From positions 1 through 64,000 of the forward strand of contig JAJFFQ010000051.1 in assembly GCA_021776565.1 (NCBI GenBank): a stretch of 64,000 bases of DNA. Reading direction: 5' to 3'. Shown here one piece after another: positions 31,153 to 62,882 of this stretch. The notes beneath the pieces were generated by a model. The model saw only the letters and a program-made list of their open reading frames with translations. It searched no databases and was not told where the DNA came from. Each line of letters starts with the position of its first letter. Position 1 is the stretch's first letter. The position numbers and the translations under genes are program-made. The stretch comes from Robiginitomaculum sp. Lineage in GTDB: Bacteria > Pseudomonadota > Alphaproteobacteria > Caulobacterales > Maricaulaceae.

Positions 31153-32145
31153 TTATTGCGTGGCGACAGATTGACGCCATAACTCCGAAACTTTGCCAGA
31201 AGCTATATCCTGTACAAAAAGCCCCCATGGGCCAGATGGCCCTTCGCCGATAGAAGAAACAAAGGCAAGGGTTTTGCCATCGGGAGACATTGCCGGATAA
31301 TCCATAAATCGTCCTTTCACGGGTTTGGGCAAATGTCTGGATTGGCCGGTATCACGATCAATCAGCATGTGGGTAACATTACCCCACGGCTCCGGTGCGC
31401 TCTGGTCAGTCCAAACAACAAGATAACGACCATCCGCCGATATACTTGGCGCAGAAAACCCAAGCCAGCCTTCAGCGGCGGTTTTCCTGGAATTTACCGT
31501 CAGTTGCTCAACATTATCTCCATTTAAGGATGAAGAATACACATCATGATGGCCGTTGCGTTTGCTGCTGAAAAACAGGGTATCACCAGCCTGTGCGATC
31601 GTCGCCTTGATTTCAAAAAACCCCAACTCCACCCGTGGCTCATCAATGAGATACGTGATTTTACCGGTTTTTTTATTCCAAATTCTAAAATCTGCATCAT
31701 GGACATCAGAATTCCGGCGTTGTGAAAATGCAATGTTACCATCGGGCAATTCAAAGGGGTGGTAATCGTCCATCCCGCGTTCGCCAAACAATCTTGCTGG
31801 TTTGCCACCAGCTATATCTATTGACGCAACGTCCCACTCTTTGCTGTTATTGCCTTCATCATCCAGAAGAGAAGAATAGATAATCTGTTTTCCATCTCGC
31901 GAAAACGATGGCTGTAAATCCAGAAAATCATTATTGGTAAGTTGCTTTAACCCACCTCCTTCTTTTTGAATAACAAATAGTTCAAAATCGGTTCCGCCTT
32001 CTTTTGCAGCAAAGGCTATTGATTTTCCATCCGGTGACCACGTGGCCCCTTGCGCACCCTGCTGGGCGTGTGCGCTTGTCATAATCCCTGACAGCAACAT
32101 TGCGCTCAATTGGGCGGTTATCGAAAATAGCGTTCGTTTTTGCAT
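31153..32145 (-). CDS. Secreted PD40/TolB-like beta-propeller protein
   Basis: A protein of about 330 residues. Signal peptide LFSITAQLSAMLLSGIMTSAHA, then repeated PD40 blades: WSPDGKSIAFAAKEGG, FSRDGKQIIYSSLLDD, ISADGRYLVVWTD, MSPDGKTLAFVSSIG. There is no N-terminal TolB domain, so it is not TolB itself. ATG 32145 starts the signal peptide; ATG 32163 is six residues earlier. It diverges from the membrane-anchored regulator at 32312. Propellers of this kind are often fused to such regulators, so this may be its sensory partner (inference). Confidence 0.83.
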   Translation of the reverse strand: MQKRTLFSITAQLSAMLLSGIMTSAHAQQGAQGATWSPDGKSIAFAAKEGGTDFELFVIQKEGGGLKQLTNNDFLDLQPSFSRDGKQIIYSSLLDDEGNNSKEWDVASIDIAGGKPARLFGERGMDDYHPFELPDGNIAFSQRRNSDVHDADFRIWNKKTGKITYLIDEPRVELGFFEIKATIAQAGDTLFFSSKRNGHHDVYSSSLNGDNVEQLTVNSRKTAAEGWLGFSAPSISADGRYLVVWTDQSAPEPWGNVTHMLIDRDTGQSRHLPKPVKGRFMDYPAMSPDGKTLAFVSSIGEGPSGPWGLFVQDIASGKVSELWRQSVATQ

Positions 32146-32311
32146 CTGATTCTCCTCGTGCAATTGCTAATGATAATTGCAAGCATGGAGCGCCTGTTGC
32201 CCTGATACAGTTTGCTAAACCTGCTTTTTTTCTACTTTATTTATACGTTTTGGTGAAAAAACTGCATTCCCTACACGAAGGCGTGCATACCTATCTGAAT
32301 TTTGATATGGG

Positions 32312-34198
32312 ATGGTTATGAATAAATTTGTCTCGACCGGGTTTGCATTTTATGACTTTGAGTTTGATGCCAAATCTGAAGAATTATTCAAAATTGCAAA
32401 ACGCAAACGTATAGATTTGCAGCCAAAGCCTGCGGCTATTCTGGCGCTTCTGCTCAAACATAACGGCGTTCTGGTAACCCGTAAAGAAATTCAAAAGCAT
32501 ATATGGCCTGATACGGTCATAGATTATAATCAACGTATCAGCTCATCCATTCAACAAATAAGAAACGCCCTTGGCGATGATCGTGCATCACCAAAATATA
32601 TTGAAACCATTCCCCGCAAGGGTTATCGGTTCATCGCCCCTATAAAGGCGTTGCCAAAACAAAACTTTATGGGGTTTTCTGTCATTGAAGCAAACAACAG
32701 GTTTGTTACGGTTTTCAGAAAAAACATATTGGCCGCGCTCCTGATTGTTGCACTTGTAAGCTCTAGTGTCCTTATTTGGTCTACACAAATTAAACCTGCA
32801 CTGGAGCCCAAAGCCTACATCAGGCCATTATTGCTTATTCTGCCCGGTGTAGTAGAGGCTAACAGTGCGCCAGATGATGCGTTGTTTCATAAACTTGCCC
32901 GTGGATTAAGTGATGAAATCATATCCCGGCTATCACGGGCGCAACCCCAAATTCTTGGCGTCATCGCTCGCATAACTGCAAAAGAATTTACCCGTGACAG
33001 ACAATCTGTTGAGCGCGCTAAAAACCAGCTGGATGCAACTCATCTGTTGGAAACCTCGATCCGCAAAAACAACGGTAAAATCTATGTTGCCACAGCACTG
33101 GTGCGCTTGTCAGATCTGACACAAGTATGGACACAAACTTATGAAACACAGATCGGCGACCTTGGTGTCATTAAAAACGATGTCGCCAACAGAATTTCAA
33201 CAGCATTAAACCTGCGTTTGCGCCATGGGGTTTGGGGAACTGAAACCCAGGGCACGTTTGATCGTGTGGCCTACCAGAATTATCTAACGGGTCTTGCTTT
33301 TCTCAACCGGTCACAACCTGATAGCATCAAAATTGCGGTTTCATATTTTCAGGCGTCTATTGACGCCGATATAAATTATGCCCCGGCCTATGCCGCTCTG
33401 GCCCGCGCTTACCTTATGTCCAGCAATCAACCACAGGCACGCGAAGCTGTCAGGCATGCACTCATTCTGGACTCAGAGTTAAGCGAAGCGTTGATGATTG
33501 ATGCACATTTCAAATTCAAAGTTGATTATGATTTTGAAGACGCAGCAAAGTCTTTTGAAAAAGCCATTACACGTACGCCAGGAAGGGCCGAATTCAGACT
33601 GCGTTACGCGGACTATTTAACCGCTATTGGCGCGTTTGACAAAGCCATTGAGCAAGCCTCAATCGCCCGTGAACTTGATCCTCTTTCGGCCTCTCTTTAT
33701 GGCGAATTGGGCTGGTTTTATTTACGCGCTCACAAACCCGAAAATGCAATATCGGAATGTAAACGCGGCCTGGAACTGCAAAAGGGTAATATTTATTACG
33801 CGCTAATTGCCAATGATTGTCTGGTATTGGCCACGTCCATGCTTGGTTATACTGACGAAGCCCTCATTGCGGCACAGGAAATCATGATTTTATTTGGTTC
33901 AGGCGATCAAAAAATAAATGCCCCACAGTCAATACAGATGCCTGATGAACAACTGCGTATATATTGGCTATGGCGCATAGAAACCATGAAAAAATTTCCG
34001 GGCACACAAATTGATATTGCAAAAAGTTATGTGGCACTTGGTGAATACGAAAAGGCCATTCAGGCCGTAGAGCTGGCCCGCAAGCAAAGCCCGAAAAATA
34101 TGGTATATCTGAAAACAGACCCATCATGGGATCCAATACGGGAAATGCCCGCATTTCAAAAAATTATCGCTGACGTTTTTCCCAACACCCCCTCATGA
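32312..34198 (+). CDS. CadC-like winged-helix membrane regulator with TolB-N-like and TPR domains
   Basis: A 628-residue membrane-anchored transcription factor. The OmpR/CadC-type winged helix (about 25-110) has RIDLQPKPAAILALLLKHNG, VTRKEIQKHIWPDT and YIETIPRKGYRFIAP. One transmembrane helix follows (ILAALLIVALVSSSVLIW, about 138-155). Next is a periplasmic domain with LARGLSDEIISRLSRAQPQI and THLLETSIRKNNGKIYVATALV, typical of the TolB_N-like domain seen in such regulators. The remainder is TPR repeats (YAPAYAALARAYL, LDPLSASLYGELGWFYLRA). Signals are probably sensed outside the cell membrane and passed to DNA without phosphorylation. It is divergent from the propeller gene. Confidence 0.85.
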   Translation: MVMNKFVSTGFAFYDFEFDAKSEELFKIAKRKRIDLQPKPAAILALLLKHNGVLVTRKEIQKHIWPDTVIDYNQRISSSIQQIRNALGDDRASPKYIETIPRKGYRFIAPIKALPKQNFMGFSVIEANNRFVTVFRKNILAALLIVALVSSSVLIWSTQIKPALEPKAYIRPLLLILPGVVEANSAPDDALFHKLARGLSDEIISRLSRAQPQILGVIARITAKEFTRDRQSVERAKNQLDATHLLETSIRKNNGKIYVATALVRLSDLTQVWTQTYETQIGDLGVIKNDVANRISTALNLRLRHGVWGTETQGTFDRVAYQNYLTGLAFLNRSQPDSIKIAVSYFQASIDADINYAPAYAALARAYLMSSNQPQAREAVRHALILDSELSEALMIDAHFKFKVDYDFEDAAKSFEKAITRTPGRAEFRLRYADYLTAIGAFDKAIEQASIARELDPLSASLYGELGWFYLRAHKPENAISECKRGLELQKGNIYYALIANDCLVLATSMLGYTDEALIAAQEIMILFGSGDQKINAPQSIQMPDEQLRIYWLWRIETMKKFPGTQIDIAKSYVALGEYEKAIQAVELARKQSPKNMVYLKTDPSWDPIREMPAFQKIIADVFPNTPS

Positions 34199-46607: not shown

Positions 46608-48037
46608 AGCGAAGTGTCCTCATCGACAAGTGCGGCGGTTTTGACCGCCTGCGTATTAAAATCTCCGGCGATAGCCAAATGAAGGCGCACGCGATTGGAT
46701 GCACGCTCCTTACTGGCCGCAATAAACTGGCTCTCGGCATTAATTCTGCGGCGCTGGGCATCCAATAGTTCAAAAATTGTGCCCACACCCCGGCCAAATT
46801 CTCGCACAGCCAGCTTCTCTGCCTCGCGGGCTTCGGTTGCAGAAACATTCAAAGAGGCCTCACGTCTGGCCAGATAGGTTTCACCATCAAGGGCATCCTC
46901 GGCTTCGCGCCAGGCAGTCAGAACAAGAGCGGCGTATGTTTCCAGCTGTATGCGCTGGGCAGCGCGGGTGCGTTTAATGTCTGCCTTTAAGGCACCACCA
47001 CGAAAGATTGGCTGGGTAAGATTGCCCAAAAGTCGCCCGGCAAGAGTGTCCAGATCAAAAATATCGGAAAAATCACTGCCACCGGTTGATGCTGATGGTG
47101 AAAATGACAAACGCGGCAGCAAGGCCTTGCGTGCCTCTGATGCCCGGAGGCCAGCAGAGGTCAGCCGGGCTTCAGCTGCCAGTATATCAGGGCGGCGGGC
47201 CAGCACATCGACAGGGGTGCCCACACCGGAAACCGCGCCCAGGACAGGCAGATTTTGTGCAGCCTTTATAGCCTTGGCAGGATAGCGTCCGAGCAGCAAT
47301 TCCAGACGCCGTGTGGCGTCGGCTTGCTGTTGTTCGCGCAAGGCCAGAGTGGCTTCTGAACCGGCCAGTGCCGAGCGGGCAAGACGCAGATCGAGTGAGC
47401 TGGATACGCCGCGTGCATAGCGCCGCTGAACCAGACGCGATGAACGGTTACGTGATTGCAGATCGTCGTTGGCAAGAGCAACCTGCTGACCACCCTCGAT
47501 CAAATCAAACCAGGCCTGGGCGGTTTGTCCGGCAATGGACAGACGCGCAGCAGCATAATCAGCCTCCGCAGCACGGGCATTGGCATAACCAGCATTGGCA
47601 CCATCCTTGATGCGACCCCACAGATCAGCCTCCCAGCTTACCGAGAGGGACGCTCCGTATGATGATATGTCAGGTGAGTTTTGCACCAGATTACGTGTGG
47701 CAGACGATGAAAAATCAACGCTGGGCAGACGCGCCGAAGCGCCGGAAACAGCCAAAGCACGTGCCTGATCTATCCGTCCGGCACTGGCCAGAAGATCATG
47801 ATTGTTGGTCAGCGCCTCATTGACCAATGCGGTCAAGTTGGCATCTGCAAACCCGGCCAGCCAATCGGCAGCCAATGCACCAACGTTTTCATTCTGACTT
47901 TGCCATTGCCCAGGAGCCTGCACGCGCATCATTTGCGCTTGCTCTGGCCCGGCATTTACGCTGGCGCAAGCACTTAGCCCAATGAGGGCGGCTGTCATCA
48001 ACCATTTGTTAGACATTTTTCGTCCCCGGAATTTCAT
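46604..48037 (-). CDS. Outer-membrane efflux channel lipoprotein (TolC/NodT family)
   Basis: A protein of about 477 residues. The lipobox lies in WLMTAALIGLSAC. The TolC-fold repeats show LNLxxS-type helices: LTALVNEALTNNHDLLASAGRIDQARAL, SASLSVSWEADLWGRIKDGANAGYANARA, LPVLGAVSGVGTPVDVLARRPDILAAEARLTSA, LTQPIFRGG. These are NodT signatures. GGAGG five bases before ATG 48037 selects this start; ATG 48016 is an alternative that suits the very short leader implied by the promoter upstream. First gene of the efflux operon. Confidence 0.9.
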   Translation of the reverse strand: MKFRGRKMSNKWLMTAALIGLSACASVNAGPEQAQMMRVQAPGQWQSQNENVGALAADWLAGFADANLTALVNEALTNNHDLLASAGRIDQARALAVSGASARLPSVDFSSSATRNLVQNSPDISSYGASLSVSWEADLWGRIKDGANAGYANARAAEADYAAARLSIAGQTAQAWFDLIEGGQQVALANDDLQSRNRSSRLVQRRYARGVSSSLDLRLARSALAGSEATLALREQQQADATRRLELLLGRYPAKAIKAAQNLPVLGAVSGVGTPVDVLARRPDILAAEARLTSAGLRASEARKALLPRLSFSPSASTGGSDFSDIFDLDTLAGRLLGNLTQPIFRGGALKADIKRTRAAQRIQLETYAALVLTAWREAEDALDGETYLARREASLNVSATEAREAEKLAVREFGRGVGTIFELLDAQRRRINAESQFIAASKERASNRVRLHLAIAGDFNTQAVKTAALVDEDTSL

Positions 48038-48054
48038 TTGGGCCTCCAAACGGG

Positions 48055-48082
48055 AAAATAACTGTTACATCGCGAATGTCAA
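48055..48082 (-). promoter_or_regulatory. Promoter of the efflux operon
   Basis: On the minus strand TTGACA (48082-48077) and TATTTT (48060-48055) are spaced by 16 bases. Transcription would start near 48048, only about 11 bases before the ATG at 48037 or 32 before the one at 48016. Good match to both hexamers. Confidence 0.6.
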
Positions 48083-48383
48083 TGAAACTTTATTGATAAA
48101 CGGCAAATATTACACGAATTTCACAATCAAACCTGACTTTCATATTTTCAGCTCCATCGGAATGGTGATATTGTTAAGATGCCCAAAACCTGGTTTTGGA
48201 TGCATATTTTCACATAACACGACAGCATGAGCGTCATTTCATTTTCCAGACGGTGAGTGATTCAAGCGTTAGAGTAATAGTGTGTTGGTTATGTAACACA
48301 CCAAACATTGTTTGACAAGATAATTCCTGCTGCGCTCAACCACAACACAGGACATGAGGGACAATGTGGGTGATTTATGGTGA
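48083..48383. other. Intergenic stretch between efflux operon and HxlR-like regulator
   Basis: About 300 AT-rich bases without a credible gene. It contains a hairpin CCAAAAC-CTG-GTTTTGG (about 48182-48198) and a GTGTGTT...AACACAC inverted repeat (about 48280-48302). The latter lies past the stop of the regulator gene and may end its transcript, although it lacks a U-run. Otherwise nothing was recognised. Confidence 0.5.
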
Positions 48384-48926
48384 TTAGTGGCTATTGAGAA
48401 ATTCACCAAGAGGCTTTCTAATCTCAACCAGTTGAGGGGTTGGCACATAAAGTGATGTTGGTGGCAAGTGATGGCCAAGCACCTTGCGACGTACCAGCCT
48501 GGTGTTGGTCAAACCTTTAAGAGAAAGAGACAGTGCGCGATCAGTGATCGGCGTTAACGAGCGACGCAATTCCCCGAACGACCTGGCATTATCCAGAACG
48601 CTGATAATCGGTAATGTCCAGCGTTTGCGCATTAACGGCAATACGCTCCGCTCTGCACCGTATCGTAAAACGCTCTTTGCTTTTGGGGCCAGTATTTCGC
48701 CAAAAGAAGTCAGCATAAATTCCGGGCGCAGGGGATGACCGTGACCGGGGTTTTCCACAACAAGCCGCAATACCATCAAATGATCCACTGCCGCCTTGAT
48801 CGATAGCGGGCTGGTCTGCAAGGCTTTGGCCAGCGGATGAATTCTGGCTGCATGGCCCTGCATCAGGGCACCAAGCACCGGCAGCGCCCAGCCTTTTTGC
48901 GTAAGGTTTATCAATATATTTGACAT
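48384..48926 (-). CDS. Two-domain HxlR-like winged-helix regulator
   Basis: A 180-residue protein that appears to contain two winged helices of the HxlR kind in one chain. The first (about 9-80) has KGWALPVLGALMQGHAARIHPLAKALQTSPLSIKAAVDHLMVLRLVVEN. The second (about 95-178) has RKRWTLPIISVLDNARSFGELRRSLTPITDRALSLSLKGLTNTRLVRRK. HxlR proteins usually are ~110-residue homodimers, so this would be a covalent pseudo-dimer. It is divergent from a VOC-family gene 48 bases away, its likely target. A perfect 12-base palindrome covers its start codon. Confidence 0.72.
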   Translation of the reverse strand: MSNILINLTQKGWALPVLGALMQGHAARIHPLAKALQTSPLSIKAAVDHLMVLRLVVENPGHGHPLRPEFMLTSFGEILAPKAKSVLRYGAERSVLPLMRKRWTLPIISVLDNARSFGELRRSLTPITDRALSLSLKGLTNTRLVRRKVLGHHLPPTSLYVPTPQLVEIRKPLGEFLNSH

Positions 48927-48936
48927 AATATATTAT
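48925..48936. promoter_or_regulatory. Palindrome over the regulator start, candidate operator
   Basis: ATAATATATTAT is a perfect 12-base palindrome that includes part of the regulator's start codon and lies in the 48-base divergent gap to the VOC gene. Symmetry and location suit an autoregulatory operator. AT-rich palindromes are common by chance, so confidence is limited. Confidence 0.4.
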
Positions 48937-48974
48937 TGTTACTATAAAAAATTATACCCAACAAGGAGATTTTC

Positions 48975-49349
48975 ATGTCACAGCTGAATTATACAGGCAA
49001 ACTCGTATTGACGTTCCCATCAACAGACTTGCAGCGCACCCGCGACTGGTATGAGCACCATCTTGGCTTTTCCCACTGCTTCACCGCCGATCAGGTGGGA
49101 TGGATGGAACTGGCCTCTCATATGAAAGACGTTAACCTTGGATTTGGTAAAAATGCACAGCCTAAACCGGGCAATTCTATTCCGGTTTTTGATGTAACTG
49201 ATCTGGATAACGCCCGCCAGACGCTGGAAGCCGGTGGAGTATCGTTTGATGGCGACACCATCGTCATTGACGGCATGGTCAAGCTGGCAACATTTTATGA
49301 CCCGGATCAAAACGCGCTGATGTTATCGCAAAACCTGATGGTTGGATAA
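48975..49349 (+). CDS. VOC (glyoxalase/bleomycin resistance) family protein
   Basis: A 124-residue vicinal-oxygen-chelate protein: KLVLTFPSTDLQRTRDWYEHHLGFSHCFTADQVGWMEL, then IPVFDVTDLDNARQTLEAGGVSFDG and VKLATFYDPDQNALMLSQNL. Two beta-alpha-beta-beta-beta units make one domain; dimers form the metal site. The Glu near the C-terminal strand of many glyoxalases is not obvious (YDPDQNALML), so it could be a binding protein or a dioxygenase-like enzyme. AAGGAG lies eight bases before the ATG. Likely controlled by the divergent HxlR-like protein. Confidence 0.85.
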   Translation: MSQLNYTGKLVLTFPSTDLQRTRDWYEHHLGFSHCFTADQVGWMELASHMKDVNLGFGKNAQPKPGNSIPVFDVTDLDNARQTLEAGGVSFDGDTIVIDGMVKLATFYDPDQNALMLSQNLMVG

Positions 49350-49436
49350 GAGAGGGCTTTTAATTCCCATTATTCCACTATGAGGCGCTATGCGGCTTTA
49401 CCTGCCTGAATTAAGTGCATTTAGTAAACTGTCGTC

Positions 49437-49513
49437 TATGGACGCCTCCTCTAATGGTTATGTCTTGCGACGCTTACCATTATGGCTCATCAAAAGCCGA
49501 AAGGGGCGTCCAT
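49437..49513. repeat. Nested inverted repeat, 77 bases
   Basis: TATGGACGCC (49437-49446) pairs with GGCGTCCATA (49504-49513). Inside, AATGGT (about 49454) pairs with ACCATT (about 49479). The nested arms could fold as one branched hairpin. It may be a remnant of a small mobile element or a structured RNA. No copy was noticed elsewhere in the window. Confidence 0.5.
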
Positions 49514-49632
49514 ACCATTACCGTAATTCGTAATTGGCGCCGTAATTGCCAGGGGTCAGGCATTGACCCTCAACTGACCCTTGGGAGGGTGAGTGGGGAT
49601 AAGCTGATGGTTATCCCCGGTTTTCCCTCTTT

Positions 49633-49815
49633 GGTGTCACCCCGGAAAGGCGTTAGCCCTAAAACAGCGAAGCGATAGGGCAAACAAAAAGCCTTATCCG
49701 GGAACCATAGTGCAGATGCCATGCCCCATAGACCCCGAATAATTTCTGATGAAATTTCCGGGGTGACACCTTTGGCGTAGTGGTGTGATGGAAATCCCGG
49801 GCTTATCCAACCGGG
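49633..49815. repeat. Cluster of palindromic intergenic elements
   Basis: GGTGTCACCCCGGAAA (49633-49648) is repeated in inverse at 49755-49770 (TTTCCGGGGTGACACC), a perfect 16-bp pair around 106 bases. Inside are GCCCTA...TAGGGC, and TATCCGGGAACC. Further on, CCCGG...CCGGG (about 49797-49815) forms another hairpin. The TGTCACCCCGG / TTATCCGGG wording is characteristic of palindromic elements scattered in alphaproteobacterial intergenic DNA. They sit just after the stop of the secreted WxxW protein gene. Confidence 0.65.
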
Positions 49816-49912
49816 GGCGCTGTTGAGGTATGATTGTGGCTGGTTGAGTAATTCAGGGTTCCCTGGCGGAGCCTGTGCTCGCTTGGGGTAATACGTACTG
49901 TTACGTGAGAAA

Positions 49913-51502
49913 TTACTGAACCGGACACAGAAAACGAACTTCATAGTCCTTGCATTTTCCATTCTTCTGTTCTGCATTTCGACAAACGCCGCCATTTTCG
50001 CTGGTGCAATGATAGATTTGGCCTGTTTGCTTCCATATGGTTTTATCCGTATCACTGGTTCGGCACTCGACAGCTTTAGGCTTTTCACAACCATTCCCGT
50101 CTTCCAGATGCCCGGCAATGGATTCTCCGTCGCCTGTACCGCTTGGGCGATCACGGTTTAGCCAAGCTGTCCATTGAAACTTGTTGTCATAGATAACCGT
50201 GCCGACTTGATTGCCCAGCATACCCGCTGCCTGCAACTGGGAAATTGTGGGTGTTCCCAAAATCGCAGTTGAAGAGGCGATAGCTTGTTTGCGGCTATTG
50301 TTTTTGGCCGCTATCGCCGCATCCTTTTCCGCCTGCAAAGCCAGTATTTCGGCAGCGACACGATCAATCCATTCATTAACCTGTCCCAAAAATTGCTGGT
50401 CATTTGTCATGTTGATATATGATGGCTTGCAAATCAAACTTACGTTCACATGCCCGTTATACCATGCGCGTTTGTTGGAATGTCGACCTTGCCCGTAGAC
50501 TTGTGAAACATGGGTGAGTTTACTGGAACTAGTTGATATAGCTGAAAGAAATTCTGAATTCGCCAATTTGAGATATTGCCTTAGAAATCTATACAGGTGC
50601 GTCGCATATGGTTTTGATAAATTTGAATTATCTATGCGGCTAATGGAAATGTTTGTTGGATGAAAACCGACTATTGATCCAGATTTTTCGCTGCTCGCGT
50701 ATTCTTTGTGTTTACCATTTCCGCCTGTTAGTATGACCGAGTATGCTCCAATGACCCAATGTGTCGGAGCATAAACAGCCTTGACCTCCTTGAAATCATC
50801 CTTGCGGGTTTTTTTAACGGTATGGTCGATATGCGCCACGTTTTGTGCGCTACGATCACCGAGTTTGCAGACAGCGCCTTCACCAGCCTTCAAATTGATG
50901 AAAGTTTTTCCATTTGTTGTTCTTGTGTGCCGACCAATCACCCGTTGAAAAATTTCTACCGCACTTGTGTCTGCTGTAATTGCTCCACTTTCAGATACAT
51001 TCATCCGAACCAGCCTGAACCGATTGGGAGAATTACACGTCGCAGTTACACTTTGTGGAGATACATAAGGATGCTTGGTAACACACCAGTCATCACGGCC
51101 TTCATGATCTATTGCATACTCACCGTAATCAAACTTGTTTGGCCAGTTTCCTTTACATTTCAGGCCGACGGTATCCTTGAAAAAAACGTCTTTTGTATAA
51201 GCATCACGCCCGCCACGCGCTCTATAGAAATACTTGCTTGTGTTATGATGCGGCTTCCAGTCACCTTTTGGACGGCTGTTTTTTGTAAAGCTTACGGGTA
51301 CAGACGGTTTATGACACAGGTTTTGATCGTCGTTCAAACTGAATCCCGCAGGGCACACTGGTTTTTTTGCATTGCCAGTCGTTGCGTTCAGGCATTGGTA
51401 TGCTGGACTGGCAGCATAAGCAATTGATGAAAATAAAATTGTAAATAAAAAAATAAACACACTGATTTGACAGTTAAAAGTAAATTTATGGAAACCCAAC
51501 AT
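49913..51502 (-). CDS. Orphan secreted protein with C-terminal mucin-type WxxW module
   Basis: A 529-residue secreted protein. Signal peptide FNCQISVFIFLFTILFSSIAYA. The mature start is Cys-rich (YQCLNATTG, PVCPAGFSLNDDQNLC). The middle ~330 residues match nothing I know. A coiled-coil stretch (VAAEILALQAEKDAAIAAKN) precedes the last ~85 residues, which contain WTAW (from residue 444), DRPSGTGDGES, CEKPKAVECRT, TGQIYHCTSENGGVCRNAEQ and CKDYEVRFLCP. This order equals the Cys-rich WxxW (CysD) module of mucins and CILP (PF13330). ATG 51502 has AAAGGA upstream. AT-rich relative to neighbours. Function unknown; surface adhesion or matrix is a guess. Confidence 0.75.
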   Translation of the reverse strand: MLGFHKFTFNCQISVFIFLFTILFSSIAYAASPAYQCLNATTGNAKKPVCPAGFSLNDDQNLCHKPSVPVSFTKNSRPKGDWKPHHNTSKYFYRARGGRDAYTKDVFFKDTVGLKCKGNWPNKFDYGEYAIDHEGRDDWCVTKHPYVSPQSVTATCNSPNRFRLVRMNVSESGAITADTSAVEIFQRVIGRHTRTTNGKTFINLKAGEGAVCKLGDRSAQNVAHIDHTVKKTRKDDFKEVKAVYAPTHWVIGAYSVILTGGNGKHKEYASSEKSGSIVGFHPTNISISRIDNSNLSKPYATHLYRFLRQYLKLANSEFLSAISTSSSKLTHVSQVYGQGRHSNKRAWYNGHVNVSLICKPSYINMTNDQQFLGQVNEWIDRVAAEILALQAEKDAAIAAKNNSRKQAIASSTAILGTPTISQLQAAGMLGNQVGTVIYDNKFQWTAWLNRDRPSGTGDGESIAGHLEDGNGCEKPKAVECRTSDTDKTIWKQTGQIYHCTSENGGVCRNAEQKNGKCKDYEVRFLCPVQ

Positions 51503-51628
51503 TGTTAGTTCCTTTGCCGTCTTTTTTATTATTCTATCAGATAGCTTGCAGATGCTCAAATTTACCGTTTTACCAGTTGGATGGACATCCCGGGCAGGGA
51601 TATAGATTGCAGCATCCGGAAAACGCCC

Positions 51629-52264
51629 TCACCCCTTCTCATAAAGCACACACAGATTATTTGCCGGCATGGCGACGGTACGGCGTAATTTCAAACTATT
51701 CTCTTTTGCGCACGCGGTCACATCATCAAGGTCGCGCACGCCCCAATCGGGATTGCGCCCGTGCAGGTTTTCATCAAAGTCTGCATTGCTGGGCGCGCTA
51801 TGAACACCGCCTTGCTTGAACGGGCCATAAAAGAATAAAATGCCGCCGGGGCGTAATAATCTTGCCACGCCGCGCATCAATCCCAACGTGGCCTCCCAAG
51901 GAGCAATATGGATCATGTTTATGTTGACAATCGCGTCAAAAAAAGCCGGCCAGTTTTTGCTCTTTGGGGTAGTTTCCCATTGCGGCGCGCAGACATTGAC
52001 CAATGATGGTGGCTGAATTCGGCCATGGCTGTTGGCATGGTCTCGCCATGCCTTGATGCTGTCAATATGGGCCGGATCCAGATCGCTGGGCCAATAGTTA
52101 AGCTGCGCCATTGCGGCGCAAAAATGCACTGCATGTTGACCCGACCCCGAAGCAATTTCCAATACGGTACACGGGCCAGGCGGCAATTCTTTTTTCAGTA
52201 CCTGTAAAATAGGCTCTGCATTGCGCCCCGTTGAGGGAAAATTCAGACGTTTGGCGTTTGACAT
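51629..52264 (-). CDS. DUF938 family SAM-dependent methyltransferase
   Basis: A 211-residue DUF938 protein. It opens FPSTGRNAEPILQVLKKELP, has motif I TVLEIASGSGQHAVHFCAAM, LNYWPSDLDPAHIDSI, the catalytic-region FDAIVNINMIHIAPWEATLGLM and ILFFYGPFKQGGVHSAPSN. Relatives are widespread in proteobacteria and mitochondria-bearing eukaryotes, with no proven substrate. The gene follows the heparinase-family gene after nine bases on the same strand. Confidence 0.9.
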   Translation of the reverse strand: MSNAKRLNFPSTGRNAEPILQVLKKELPPGPCTVLEIASGSGQHAVHFCAAMAQLNYWPSDLDPAHIDSIKAWRDHANSHGRIQPPSLVNVCAPQWETTPKSKNWPAFFDAIVNINMIHIAPWEATLGLMRGVARLLRPGGILFFYGPFKQGGVHSAPSNADFDENLHGRNPDWGVRDLDDVTACAKENSLKLRRTVAMPANNLCVLYEKG

Positions 52265-52273
52265 TTTTCCCTG

Positions 52274-53998
52274 CTACCCCTGCACCCGCTCAAAAGACCA
52301 GTTAATGACGTTTTGCGGATCGGTAATGTTGCCTTGCGAGTTCAAGGTATGCTGAACCAGTAATTGTGAAGTGCGTTGCGGCGGCGCGCCGCCAGCAAGA
52401 TAAACCGAGGGCCGCAGCTCTACCTTGCCATCAGCACAATGAAACCGCCAGCCAGACCCATCGGGAAGAACCAGAAGTACCTGGGTATCATCACGGGCCA
52501 AGCTGGCCCGCACCTTTGGATGTAAATGAAACCGCAAGGCACAGTCCAGTATAGCAGGGGTTGTAACCTTGGGCGCATCGACCGGGCGAAATACCCGATC
52601 TTCTCCAAACACCTTGTCTCCGGTCTCATTGACCAGAACCTGCCTTTGATGGATCAGACCAAAGGCATGCAAATACCCGCCATGGCTGGCCTCCATCCTT
52701 GTGCCTACGCCCGGCTCCAGCTTACGCCGTGACGGGTTTGCCTGTCCGCGCTGGCGAAGCCTTGGCCCCAAAAGCGTAGCGCGCCAGCCCTTTGCGCTGA
52801 TCTGTGCCGAGGAGTTGTCATTGATAATCAGGGTCGAGTGCGCCGCACTGGTACGTACCGCCATATGCCACCGATCCGGCTGATCCTCTGACCAGCCACA
52901 ATTGACGATCAATCGTCCGCCCGGCGTGCTTAGCTCCATCGCCAGCGCCCCGGCATGTGCCTGTTGGCTATAGCGTTCTGGCGGCGCCCGCCCGGTATCC
53001 ATAATCACAACCGAGGCGTTTGTCTTGACCCGTTGATAACCAGAGTGCGGCGCGTAATTAAATGCACTTTCCGGGATGGAAAGAGCGCGTAATATGCGCG
53101 GTGTTGTCAAAGCTCGCCCTTCACCTCCGCCGTTAAAAACGCAAAGGTGGCCATCAGCAGCGCATAAAAACCGTACCATAGGTGCCAGACGAGCCAGCGC
53201 GCGTTCAATGTCTTCGGGAACCGGAGCATTTTGACTTTCCAGCAAAAGTTTGAGCGATACCAGATCACAAAGTGTGGAGGTGGCAATTTCAGGGTTACGC
53301 GAAATATGCCCGCCATCGGGCAATATCTGCTTGGCAAGCTGAACGCTTAATAACGCCAACCCAGGTTCGACAAATCTTCTGGCCCCGGGAATAATAAGGC
53401 CGGTTACGACCAGCACCAAAGCAATTTGTAATCGATCATGCGGATCAATGGCTATGTGGCCAAGGCTAAGTAAATAGGCAACCTGTCTAATCAGGCTTTT
53501 ACGACGCAACCCGGCTTGAGCGCCTGGGCCAAGAAGAATTTCATCAGCAGACAACCAGTTCAGACACCGTTTTGCGGTAAGACCCGGTGCCCAGGAAAAC
53601 GGGTTCCACCCCCCGTAAACCTGCACCCACCGATCCATATGTTTACCGGCAACAACCACCGCTTCGGGTGTGCCAATGGCAAGCACATCATGGATCCAGC
53701 CAAATTCATGCAAACGTGTGGCAAAGCGCCGTGTCGGTGCCGGCTTCGCCCAGGGTTCGTGAATATCTTCAAATTGTAAAATTGCGCCGGCCAGATAAAA
53801 TGTTCCCTGAACCATTGCCATGCCTTTTTGTGGATCAGCCTTGCTTAGCCGAGGCAGGATTGTATTGGGTGGTTCAGTTTCGGGAGGGCGTAAAAACAAG
53901 GCGCGAAACAACGACAGGCTGAACAGTTCGCCAACCAGGCGGCGACGGCCCATTTTCAAACTTGCGCTTATGAGTTCTATAAACTGATTGACGGCCAC
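52274..53998 (-). CDS. Heparinase II/III family protein
   Basis: A 574-residue protein with the alphaproteobacterial heparinase II/III layout. An alpha-helical toroid N-terminus has WGGWNPFSWAPGLTAKRCLNWL-like text (YGGWNPFSWAPGLTAKRC) and GGHISRNPEIATSTLCDLVSL. The beta-sandwich part has VIMDTGRAPPERYSQQAHAGALAMEL, GRLIVNCGWSE, STLIINDNSSAQ. The family contains polysaccharide lyases, but this conserved chromosomal group lacks an assigned substrate. It stands in the usual position near rsmB, though purH, its frequent neighbour, is 13.7 kb away. Confidence 0.88.
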   Translation of the reverse strand: MAVNQFIELISASLKMGRRRLVGELFSLSLFRALFLRPPETEPPNTILPRLSKADPQKGMAMVQGTFYLAGAILQFEDIHEPWAKPAPTRRFATRLHEFGWIHDVLAIGTPEAVVVAGKHMDRWVQVYGGWNPFSWAPGLTAKRCLNWLSADEILLGPGAQAGLRRKSLIRQVAYLLSLGHIAIDPHDRLQIALVLVVTGLIIPGARRFVEPGLALLSVQLAKQILPDGGHISRNPEIATSTLCDLVSLKLLLESQNAPVPEDIERALARLAPMVRFLCAADGHLCVFNGGGEGRALTTPRILRALSIPESAFNYAPHSGYQRVKTNASVVIMDTGRAPPERYSQQAHAGALAMELSTPGGRLIVNCGWSEDQPDRWHMAVRTSAAHSTLIINDNSSAQISAKGWRATLLGPRLRQRGQANPSRRKLEPGVGTRMEASHGGYLHAFGLIHQRQVLVNETGDKVFGEDRVFRPVDAPKVTTPAILDCALRFHLHPKVRASLARDDTQVLLVLPDGSGWRFHCADGKVELRPSVYLAGGAPPQRTSQLLVQHTLNSQGNITDPQNVINWSFERVQG

Positions 53999-61700: not shown

Positions 61701-61772
61701 AATAACCCTTGTTTTAACATATGGAGCAAATGTGTTGCAAAAAATGAAAAATTATAACATGTTTGGCGCATT

Positions 61773-62882
61773 ATGTTAAACCCCAGCTATATTATACCTT
61801 TATTGCCGCCAAAAGTAGAATTGGAAACTAGGGTGGTTTTGAAGGCCTTGTCAAAAGCCCACCGACCTTTGGCAGAATTGAAAGGGCGTGCGGTTGCAAT
61901 TCCCAATCAAGCTATATTGATAAATACACTAACTCTACAAGAAGCAAAAGCTAGCTCTGAAATTGAAAATATTGTGACGACTCAGGATGAGTTATTTCAA
62001 GTTGACTTGTTTCCTGGAAACTCAGGACCATCAAATGCCAAAGAAGTTGCCCTTTACCGCGACGCTATCTGGCAAGGGATGGAAGATATGAAAAAGCATA
62101 ACGGGATTCTTAGAAATAGTGCGATGGTACGGATATTCCAGCTTCTAAAAAATCGTAATGATGGTTTTCGAGTTCTACCAGGAACAGCCTTGTTAAATGA
62201 CCAGACTGGAGAAACTGTTTATGTGCCGCCGCAAAACGCAACAGAGATAGCCAATCATATGGCGCAACTGGAGGTTTTCATCAATGATGACAGCTTGTCT
62301 GACCTTGATCCACTAATCAAAATGGCAATCGTTCACCACCAGTTTGAAAGTATTCATCCGTTTCCTGACGGGAATGGACGTATTGGGCGTATCCTCAACG
62401 TGCTTTACCTGACTAAAACAGAGCTTTTGGATATTCCAATCCTCTATCTCAGCCGTTACATCACTCAAACCAAAAATGAGTACTACCGGTTACTCCAAGA
62501 CGTGCGGGATACGAATGGTTCCGTTGACGCTTGGGAAGCGTGGGTACTCTACATTCTGGAAGCCGTTGCTGTGACGGCTAGGCTTACACTAGATATAATC
62601 GAGGGCTTACGCACACTCATGGCTGATTACAAACACCGCATGCGTAAAAACCTACCAAAACTCTATTCTCAAGACCTGCTCAACAATTTATTTCGCCATC
62701 CGTATACCCGAATTGATTATGTCATGAAGGATTTGGGCGTGGCACGGCAAACTGCTGCAAAATATTTGGATCAACTAGCGGTGGAAAATTTTGTCGAAAA
62801 GCACCAGTCTGGCCGAAATAATTATTATATCAACATGCCGTTGCTTAATCTTTTTTTGACGGCATCAAGTGGAGAATTATAG
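61773..62882 (+). CDS. Class II Fic AMP-transferase with C-terminal winged helix
   Basis: A 369-residue Fic protein that would transfer AMP from ATP to hydroxyl side chains of target proteins. The full active motif HPFPDGNGRIGR is present (catalytic His195). The N-terminal inhibitory helix motif (S/T)xxxE(G/N) appears as SSEIEN (Ser61, Glu65, Asn66), so the protein is self-inhibited, class II. The C-terminus is a winged helix (YTRIDYVMKDLGVARQTAAKYLDQLAVENFVEKH). Layout and length match SoFic of Shewanella. The gene is AT-rich and has AT-rich flanks, unlike its GT neighbours, suggesting acquisition. Confidence 0.92.
   Translation: MLNPSYIIPLLPPKVELETRVVLKALSKAHRPLAELKGRAVAIPNQAILINTLTLQEAKASSEIENIVTTQDELFQVDLFPGNSGPSNAKEVALYRDAIWQGMEDMKKHNGILRNSAMVRIFQLLKNRNDGFRVLPGTALLNDQTGETVYVPPQNATEIANHMAQLEVFINDDSLSDLDPLIKMAIVHHQFESIHPFPDGNGRIGRILNVLYLTKTELLDIPILYLSRYITQTKNEYYRLLQDVRDTNGSVDAWEAWVLYILEAVAVTARLTLDIIEGLRTLMADYKHRMRKNLPKLYSQDLLNNLFRHPYTRIDYVMKDLGVARQTAAKYLDQLAVENFVEKHQSGRNNYYINMPLLNLFLTASSGEL

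Follow-up and report, generated by a model that had tools for sequence, protein, structure and literature searches.

The last 83 residues of a 529-amino-acid protein of Robiginitomaculum sp., encoded on the reverse strand of the window (here, the whole stretch of 64 000 nucleotides that was analysed), almost certainly belong to the WxxW (CysD) family, the family of the CysD domains of the human mucins MUC2, MUC5AC and MUC5B. This identity is drawn from a profile match and a predicted fold, not from a solved structure. The gene and its immediate surroundings contain the following features.

49913–51502, reverse strand: coding sequence, 529 amino acids, ATG at 51502; the whole protein matches PF13330
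51531–51559, reverse strand: weak promoter-like site (TTGAGC-17-TAGAAT) upstream of the ATG
51510–51514, reverse strand: probable ribosome-binding site AAGGA, from sequence and position
51413–51502, reverse strand: putative signal peptide, residues 1–30, read by eye from a hydrophobic stretch and A-Y-A before Ala31 (AXA)
51035–51394, reverse strand: N-terminal cysteine-bearing region, residues 37–156, from the cysteine list and alignment; absent from the relative L017
50414–50950, reverse strand: middle domain, residues 185–363, from BLASTP against L017 (E = 7e-12); no known family
50273–50401, reverse strand: predicted long helix, residues 368–410, linking middle domain and module in the full-length model
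49925–50173, reverse strand: WxxW (CysD-type) module, residues 444–526, with six cysteines, from PF13330, PDB sequence matches and predicted fold
49400–49912, no strand: intergenic stretch of dispersed repeat pieces, from genome-wide matches and an inverted pair

The mechanical start of the open reading frame (ORF; 49913–51559, reverse strand) is a TTG 19 codons upstream of the ATG at 51502, but this ATG is most likely the translation start, because AAGGA stands a few bases upstream of it. Promoter-like sites in the region are fewer than the shuffled mean, and the site at 51531–51559 is thus no evidence of function. The borders of the domains are approximate, because confidence in the full-length model is low (mean pLDDT 48.2); within it, helix residues 371–410 have pLDDT values of 70–84.

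Module, fold and protein architecture

A sequence-only reading had recognized by eye a mucin WxxW (CysD) module in a secreted bacterial protein, and had proposed a PF13330 search and a structure prediction as checks. The motifs on which it relied (WTAW, DRPSGTGDGES, CEKP, VECR, TGQIYHC, GGVCRNAEQ and CKDYEVRFLCP) are present in that order, in an ORF that ends at 49913, and secretion agrees with the signal peptide, itself read by eye. The PF13330 (Mucin2_WxxW) profile scores 75.6 bits in the whole protein (E = 5.2e-21) and 79.5 bits against the module alone (E = 3.2e-22, profile positions 1–88 of 88), far above the curated cut-off of 22.4 bits; the WxxW motif itself is the WTAW at module residues 4–7. 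With these E values the match is not due to chance; the 14 control genomes included in each spread search gave no PF13330 match (0/14).

The predicted structure led to the same family. Searched against the PDB, the module sequence found the CysD domains of human MUC5AC, MUC5B and MUC2 (best E 5.2e-10), and a profile of 19 modules again found mucin CysD (best E 1.7e-23). An AlphaFold2 model of the module, made from these 19 aligned modules (pLDDT 88.7), gave seven Foldseek matches at E ≤ 0.001, all of them mucin CysD (E 9e-6 to 1.1e-4), so that mucin CysD alone is strongly matched. In VIA-align the model reached Z values of 12.0 for MUC5B CysD over 89 residues, 11.8 and 11.6 for MUC2 CysD1, 11.7 for MUC5AC CysD7 and 8.2 for MUC2 CysD2 (NMR), and the next unrelated fold, PCSK9, scored 3.9. 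This gap, together with 29–35% identity over nearly the whole domain, argues for a relation to mucin CysD and not for a look-alike. The window module has the predicted fold, the WxxW motif, the GDxE stretch and the late Asn and Tyr in common with the mucin domains. However, it is bacterial and is not set between Thr/Ser/Pro tracts: the highest T+S+P fraction in any 40-residue stretch of the protein is 0.35, and a Pfam scan at E up to 10 found neither a VWD nor a cystine-knot domain in it.

The rest of the protein has few known relatives. The N-terminal region contains Cys 37, 50, 63, 116, 140 and 156, and a cEGF match of the protein stays below threshold (12.3 bits against a Pfam cut-off of 26.6). 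No match of the protein was found in NCBIfam or PHROGs. The sequence-only reading had called the protein an orphan, which was too strong, since L017 (a Parvularculaceae bin, CAJXLJ010000072.1) encodes a relative over the whole architecture. Like the window protein, L017 joins the middle domain to the module, but it has no N-terminal cysteine region; its module is 61% identical to that of the window, its middle region is 26% identical over 199 residues (BLASTP, E 7e-12), and Cys212 and Cys358 of the middle domain are common to both proteins in the alignment. The neighbours of L017 differ from those in the window, with a tRNA-guanine transglycosylase-like ORF (by eye) upstream. In a draw of 385 genomes of the class, the middle domain was found only in the window's own genome, and it has no significant PDB sequence match. 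The full-length model is too poor for a fold search, and the fold of the middle domain is therefore not to be called new. Two candidates for this domain were rejected, namely a PDB sequence matched by its profile at E = 0.32, and a PADLOC restriction enzyme model (15 bits over 57 residues) that we take for a chance match. A kinship of the front of L018 with that of L017 was likewise not supported (E 0.38).

Spread, cysteines and history of the modules

PF13330 matches are sparse around the window. The window's own genome has one and is the only carrier among 61 near relatives, and none was found in 17 congeners. In genome draws that overlap one another, matches occurred in 2/398 genomes of the order, in 4/385 of the class and, across the phylum, in 1/398, which was again the window's own. 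The second carrier in the order draw agrees with L017 in contig number, coordinates and score and would thus be its genome, which probably places L017 in the same order but in another family. Family searches gave 6/43 genomes in the family of G427 (hereafter f94, Alphaproteobacteria with small genomes of 0.7–1.8 Mb), 1/2 in the family of G182 and 7/120 in the family of Teredinibacter sp. ISS155.

When named genomes were scanned with four modules, 15 loci emerged, and 14 of these were accepted; the fifteenth, L031 (E 3e-4), shows merely a DYEVR-like stretch in an ORF that has nothing of the rest, and is left out of all counts. The accepted loci come from a Parvularculaceae bin and two alphaproteobacterial bins, from an Archangium bin, Pyxidicoccus caerfyrddinensis and a Holophagales bin, from two Proteobacteria bins and one bin each of Pacearchaeota, Neisseriales and Bermanella, and from Teredinibacter (two loci) and Cellvibrio mixtus. 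Many module-bearing genomes are metagenome bins, in which a stray contig is possible; this is less likely for Pyxidicoccus, Cellvibrio and Teredinibacter, which are not titled as bins. A Neisseriales bin contains four modules in a row (L059, L067, L070 and L072 on contig C56 of G839), two of them with internal stop codons, and this array is partly decayed or read in pieces. In G852, of the Teredinibacter family, there are 12 WxxW matches, several in proteins with CxxCH-like motifs (by eye), PKD and ricin-type domains.

Cysteines were tabulated, and a midpoint-rooted tree was built, from 46 rows (43 prokaryotic and three human) over 94 columns. Rows were left out where the module was partial (L011), had internal stops (L070 and L072) or was interrupted (L030/L078), where it was a re-fetched duplicate (L018, L021, L026, L028, L065 and others) or a near-duplicate (L025 and L080), and, for the already well covered family Cellvibrionaceae, in six further matches (L083, L085, L088, L092, L094 and L095).

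The six cysteines of the window module lie at module residues 32, 40, 59, 67, 77 and 86; in the order 32/86, 40/59 and 67/77 these are Cys472/526, Cys480/499 and Cys507/517 of the protein. They are six of the eight in the MUC5AC CysD7 row, the two missing being the cysteine that precedes WxxW and the second one of the final CC. The earlier claim that the whole cysteine pattern agrees with that of mucins thus stands for the six shared positions and fails at these two. A passage of PMC11912381 gives five disulfides for the full set in animal gel-mucin CysD; the window module, with six cysteines and at most three disulfides, does not carry this set. Both animal-type extra cysteines occur in all 11 f94 rows, whereas among the other 32 prokaryotic rows the first was seen in none and the CC end in only two (Neisseriales); two of the human rows are trimmed, and their cysteine-end flags are not meaningful.

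Among the 43 prokaryotic rows, Cys67 and Cys77 are both present in all. For Cys40 and Cys59, 16 rows have both, 20 have neither and seven are discordant; 19 of the 20 joint losses are in Cellvibrionaceae-family rows, so that the co-losses count as few events. For Cys32 and Cys86, 35 rows have both, one (L023) has neither and seven are discordant, six of these being f94 rows with a cysteine a few places off. In MUC2, C1365–C1379 is a known disulfide according to a passage of PMC11912381, and it falls at module residues 67/77, as read from structure-alignment ranges. From the position of this pair and the co-occurrence of cysteines, the disulfides are most likely Cys507–Cys517, Cys480–Cys499 and, by remainder, Cys472–Cys526, although presence/absence counts cannot tell pairs apart among nearly invariant cysteines. 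The loop between Cys67 and Cys77 has nine residues and is shorter than that of MUC2.

Animal gel-mucin CysD binds a calcium ion; acidic residues are conserved in the prokaryotic modules, with D18 present in 42/43 rows. The C-mannose site of the mucin CYS domain is the WxxW tryptophan. The second Trp of this motif is kept in 43/43 prokaryotic rows and, as we know of no bacterium that makes the C-mannose modification, this suggests a structural role for it in the prokaryotic modules. The presence of C-mannose on the mucin domain is described in a passage of PMC6861317.

In the tree, the window module groups with L004, L017 and two modules of G296 (96/84). One branch (98/98) holds the 11 f94 rows together with the three human rows, and inside it the two kinds interleave, with weak to moderate support. 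The fork that joins 30 of the remaining prokaryotic rows has weak support (74/92), with the two Neisseriales rows beyond it, next to the animal-like set; as a single group the remaining prokaryotic rows thus have no firm support in the tree. The closest prokaryote–human pair of three modules compared was that of L007:211-477 (f94) and human MUC5AC CysD7, at 108 bits over the full length, and the best human match of the window module scored 44.5 bits. The separate f94/human branch and these scores point to two or more module histories, that of an animal-like set in f94 and that of free-living rows, which include the window. With three human rows, 94 columns and a midpoint root, the direction of transfer is not readable from the tree.

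Some f94 proteins resemble mucins in layout as well. The six modules of G813 lie in five long ORFs with Thr/Ser/Pro-rich tracts (L096, L097, L010, L012 and L015), one or two modules to an ORF. That at L096:2143-7017 (reverse strand, 1624 amino acids) has a pseudopilin-like N-terminus (by eye), followed by a tract at residues 236–424 (73% T+S+P), a cysteine-rich part, a tract at 1031–1251 (76%), a CysD from 1254, a tract at 1343–1456 (62%) and a CysD from 1486. The ORF at L097:1302-4844 (forward strand, 1180 amino acids) has two tracts, one CysD and a pseudopilin-like N-terminus in view. The CysD reading frames of G813 are continuous, with no introns; the neighbour of the L096 ORF carries an autotransporter beta-domain and the L097 ORF adjoins an EF-Tu-like ORF (by eye), and these neighbours indicate that the mucin-like ORFs are bacterial DNA. 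Their alternation of Thr/Ser/Pro tracts and CysD matches the layout of gel mucins, and we rate it as more surprising than the window protein. At four f94 loci, namely L002:1477-3174 (reverse strand), L005:751-2133, L008:847-1818 and L009:841-1773 (all three forward strand), type IV pseudopilin-like N-termini (by eye, GRSMVEML...) are joined to CysD modules that have the extra cysteines of the animal type.

Bacterial members of PF13330 very probably exist in protein databases. We found no description of a prokaryotic CysD in the open-licence PMC literature, by titles and abstract openings among the matches listed. A passage of a 2022 paper (PMC9169620) places the first appearance of CysD in Bilateria. 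Conversely, CysD may be an old, mobile prokaryotic extracellular contact module that animals took up for their mucins. In this view f94 carries an animal-type version, from which it builds pseudopilin-anchored, Thr/Ser/Pro-rich bacterial mucin look-alikes, and the window protein belongs to the free-living branch; we regard this as possible, though on the doubtful side.

Genomic setting of the gene

The gene was earlier described as AT-rich, and its GC3 of about 0.41 is indeed the lowest among 41 long ORFs, chosen mechanically within the window (mean 0.525, sd 0.049). Three other window ORFs (31153–32163, 32312–34198 and 61761–62882) are nearly as low, at 0.41–0.43, and are possible further foreign genes. 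Palindromic repeats had also been said to flank the gene. Downstream this is correct: the stretch 49400–49912 has at least 45 matches in its own genome, itself included (a lower bound, with 40 of 76 first-look candidates scored), and contains a perfect 16-nt inverted pair (49633–49648 and 49755–49770). On the upstream side, however, there is only one short repeat copy (51580–51595) before the next gene. No Rfam family was found over 48000–52500.

A block of RsmB, glycine-zipper lipoprotein, heparinase-like and DUF938 genes is kept in all five congeners fetched, out of 15 with a DUF938 match, and in the stretches fetched (that of L052 reaches about 1.4 kb beyond the block) none has the module gene beside it. 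The window gene therefore sits in a lineage-specific stretch. Between 42179 and 49349 the window also carries an RND efflux set (a pump by likeness, an HlyD-type adaptor and an outer membrane efflux protein), followed by an HxlR-type regulator divergent from a glyoxalase-family gene; this set was not found in the stretches around DUF938 of the five congeners, and in three of them a distant RND gene stands in its place.

The L017 gene is GC-poor as well (49.5%, against 61–65% upstream and 54–60% downstream). Taken with the two carriers among 398 genomes of the order, the absence from all 17 congeners, the conserved block without the gene and the low GC3, this makes horizontal gain of the window gene the simplest reading, although repeated loss in relatives could explain the absences. 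The whole protein had no match in genome contigs, plasmids, phages or viral contigs, nor did module alignment A1 in viral contigs, and thus no phage or plasmid carrier was found.

Domain partners and possible role

Carbohydrate-active or lectin domains exceed the Pfam cut-off in seven of the 24 module-bearing relatives scanned, all seven from two genomes of the Teredinibacter family (Cellvibrionaceae), G837 and G852. These proteins are L026 (GDSL esterase, CBM6 and three modules in a row), L030 (GH16, CBM56, PA14, di-haem peroxidase and a module), L064 and L069 (GH43, ricin-type lectin and module, with three modules in a row in L069), and L086, L092 and L094 (ricin-type, PKD and module). The other 17, L017 included, have no carbohydrate partner over the cut-off, except for a marginal 'heparin-binding' APP_N match in the archaeal protein L024 (23.0 against 22.1 bits); lectin and PI-PLC matches of the Bermanella protein are below it. 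In Teredinibacter, the WxxW module of the GH16 protein is interrupted by a stretch that resembles, by eye, a chitin/cellulose-binding module (L030:6001-6477); L026, L064 and L069 have a similar stretch after their modules.

In nine of the 14 accepted scan loci, as in the window, the protein stops no more than about 10 residues after the module. The archaeal and Cellvibrio proteins have the module at the N-terminus, and those of Teredinibacter and Bermanella have it internally or in tandem. Two adjacent genes of G296 share a module (62/82 residues identical, 76%), and their fronts gave no blastp match with each other at E ≤ 10. Like the window module, those of the Teredinibacter family are non-catalytic, repeated or terminal, and on exported proteins, but they lack Cys40 and Cys59, and the GH43, GH16, GDSL, CBM and ricin-type domains that accompany some of them have no counterpart in the window protein. 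WxxW modules resemble the carbohydrate-binding modules of bacterial enzymes in being small, portable, non-catalytic and terminal or tandem. The likeness is in way of working, with no sequence or fold relation shown, and sugar binding would be by analogy.

The modules are thus small and portable, stand at an end or in tandem and, to judge by their partners, are non-catalytic. Binding modules in secreted proteins have these properties, which suggest an extracellular contact role; both role and ligand are read from the domain company. Judging by its signal peptide, the protein would be exported through Sec, and its C-terminal 83 residues would adopt a WxxW (CysD-type) fold with three disulfides. 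Without catalysis, the module would bind a polysaccharide or a matrix protein outside the cell through contacts that are weak and repeatable, and would anchor the rest of the protein (the rare, disulfide-bearing middle domain and the long helix) to a surface, to a particle or within a biofilm. Horizontal transfer would have brought the gene in recently. We offer the full statement (export, three disulfides, a non-catalytic contact role outside the cell and horizontal gain of the gene) tentatively, as one with a substantial but not quite even chance of being right; a putative matrix or adhesion role of the window protein is plausible.

Four other readings were weighed. The module could be a cross-linker that self-associates, as mucin CysD is thought to, and stiffens a gel or extracellular matrix. 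The common predicted fold and the tandem copies in Teredinibacter agree with this, as does a passage of PMC6861317 in which mucus becomes stiffer with recombinant tandem CYS domains, which are believed to self-associate. However, the window protein has a single module and no Thr/Ser/Pro tract (maximum 0.35), and the loop that makes the contact in MUC2 (C1365–C1379) is short in it; according to passages of PMC11912381, MUC5AC CysD1, which also has a short loop, is not seen docked in its filament. We consider cross-linking unlikely.

A C-terminal sorting or stability signal, recognized by an export or surface-attachment machine and needing no outside ligand, would account for the terminal position in nine of 14 loci and the window, and for the two G296 genes with unrelated fronts and a shared end module. 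It accords poorly with the N-terminal, internal and tandem modules of the other lineages, and none of seven neighbouring genes scanned resembles a dedicated sorting system, which leaves it quite unlikely. The chance is low, too, that the gene is selfish or decaying cargo, recently acquired and of little use to its present host: it has the lowest GC3 of the 41 ORFs, adjoins dispersed repeats and is absent from 17/17 congeners, but its 529 codons, signal peptide, ribosome-binding site and all six module cysteines are intact, and the two-domain architecture is kept in another family of the order (L017). Mimicry of a host, through a gene taken from an animal by which the bacterium blends into or binds animal mucus, is already disfavoured and very improbable for the window module, for although human mucins are its closest matches among solved structures and clearly animal-like modules (108 bits to MUC5AC CysD7) occur in another alphaproteobacterial family, the window module falls in the alphaproteobacterial five-row set (96/84) and outside the set with the human rows (98/98), has Parvularculaceae, Myxococcota and an alphaproteobacterial bin as its nearest rows by path, reaches only 44.5 bits with any human match and lacks the extra cysteines.

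The presence of WxxW modules in Alphaproteobacteria, Cellvibrionaceae, Myxococcota, Holophagales, Neisseriales and one archaeal bin reopens the question of where this part of the mucins originated. The six-cysteine modules, moreover, are small versions in which the basic job of CysD may be measured without the glycan-rich mucin around it.
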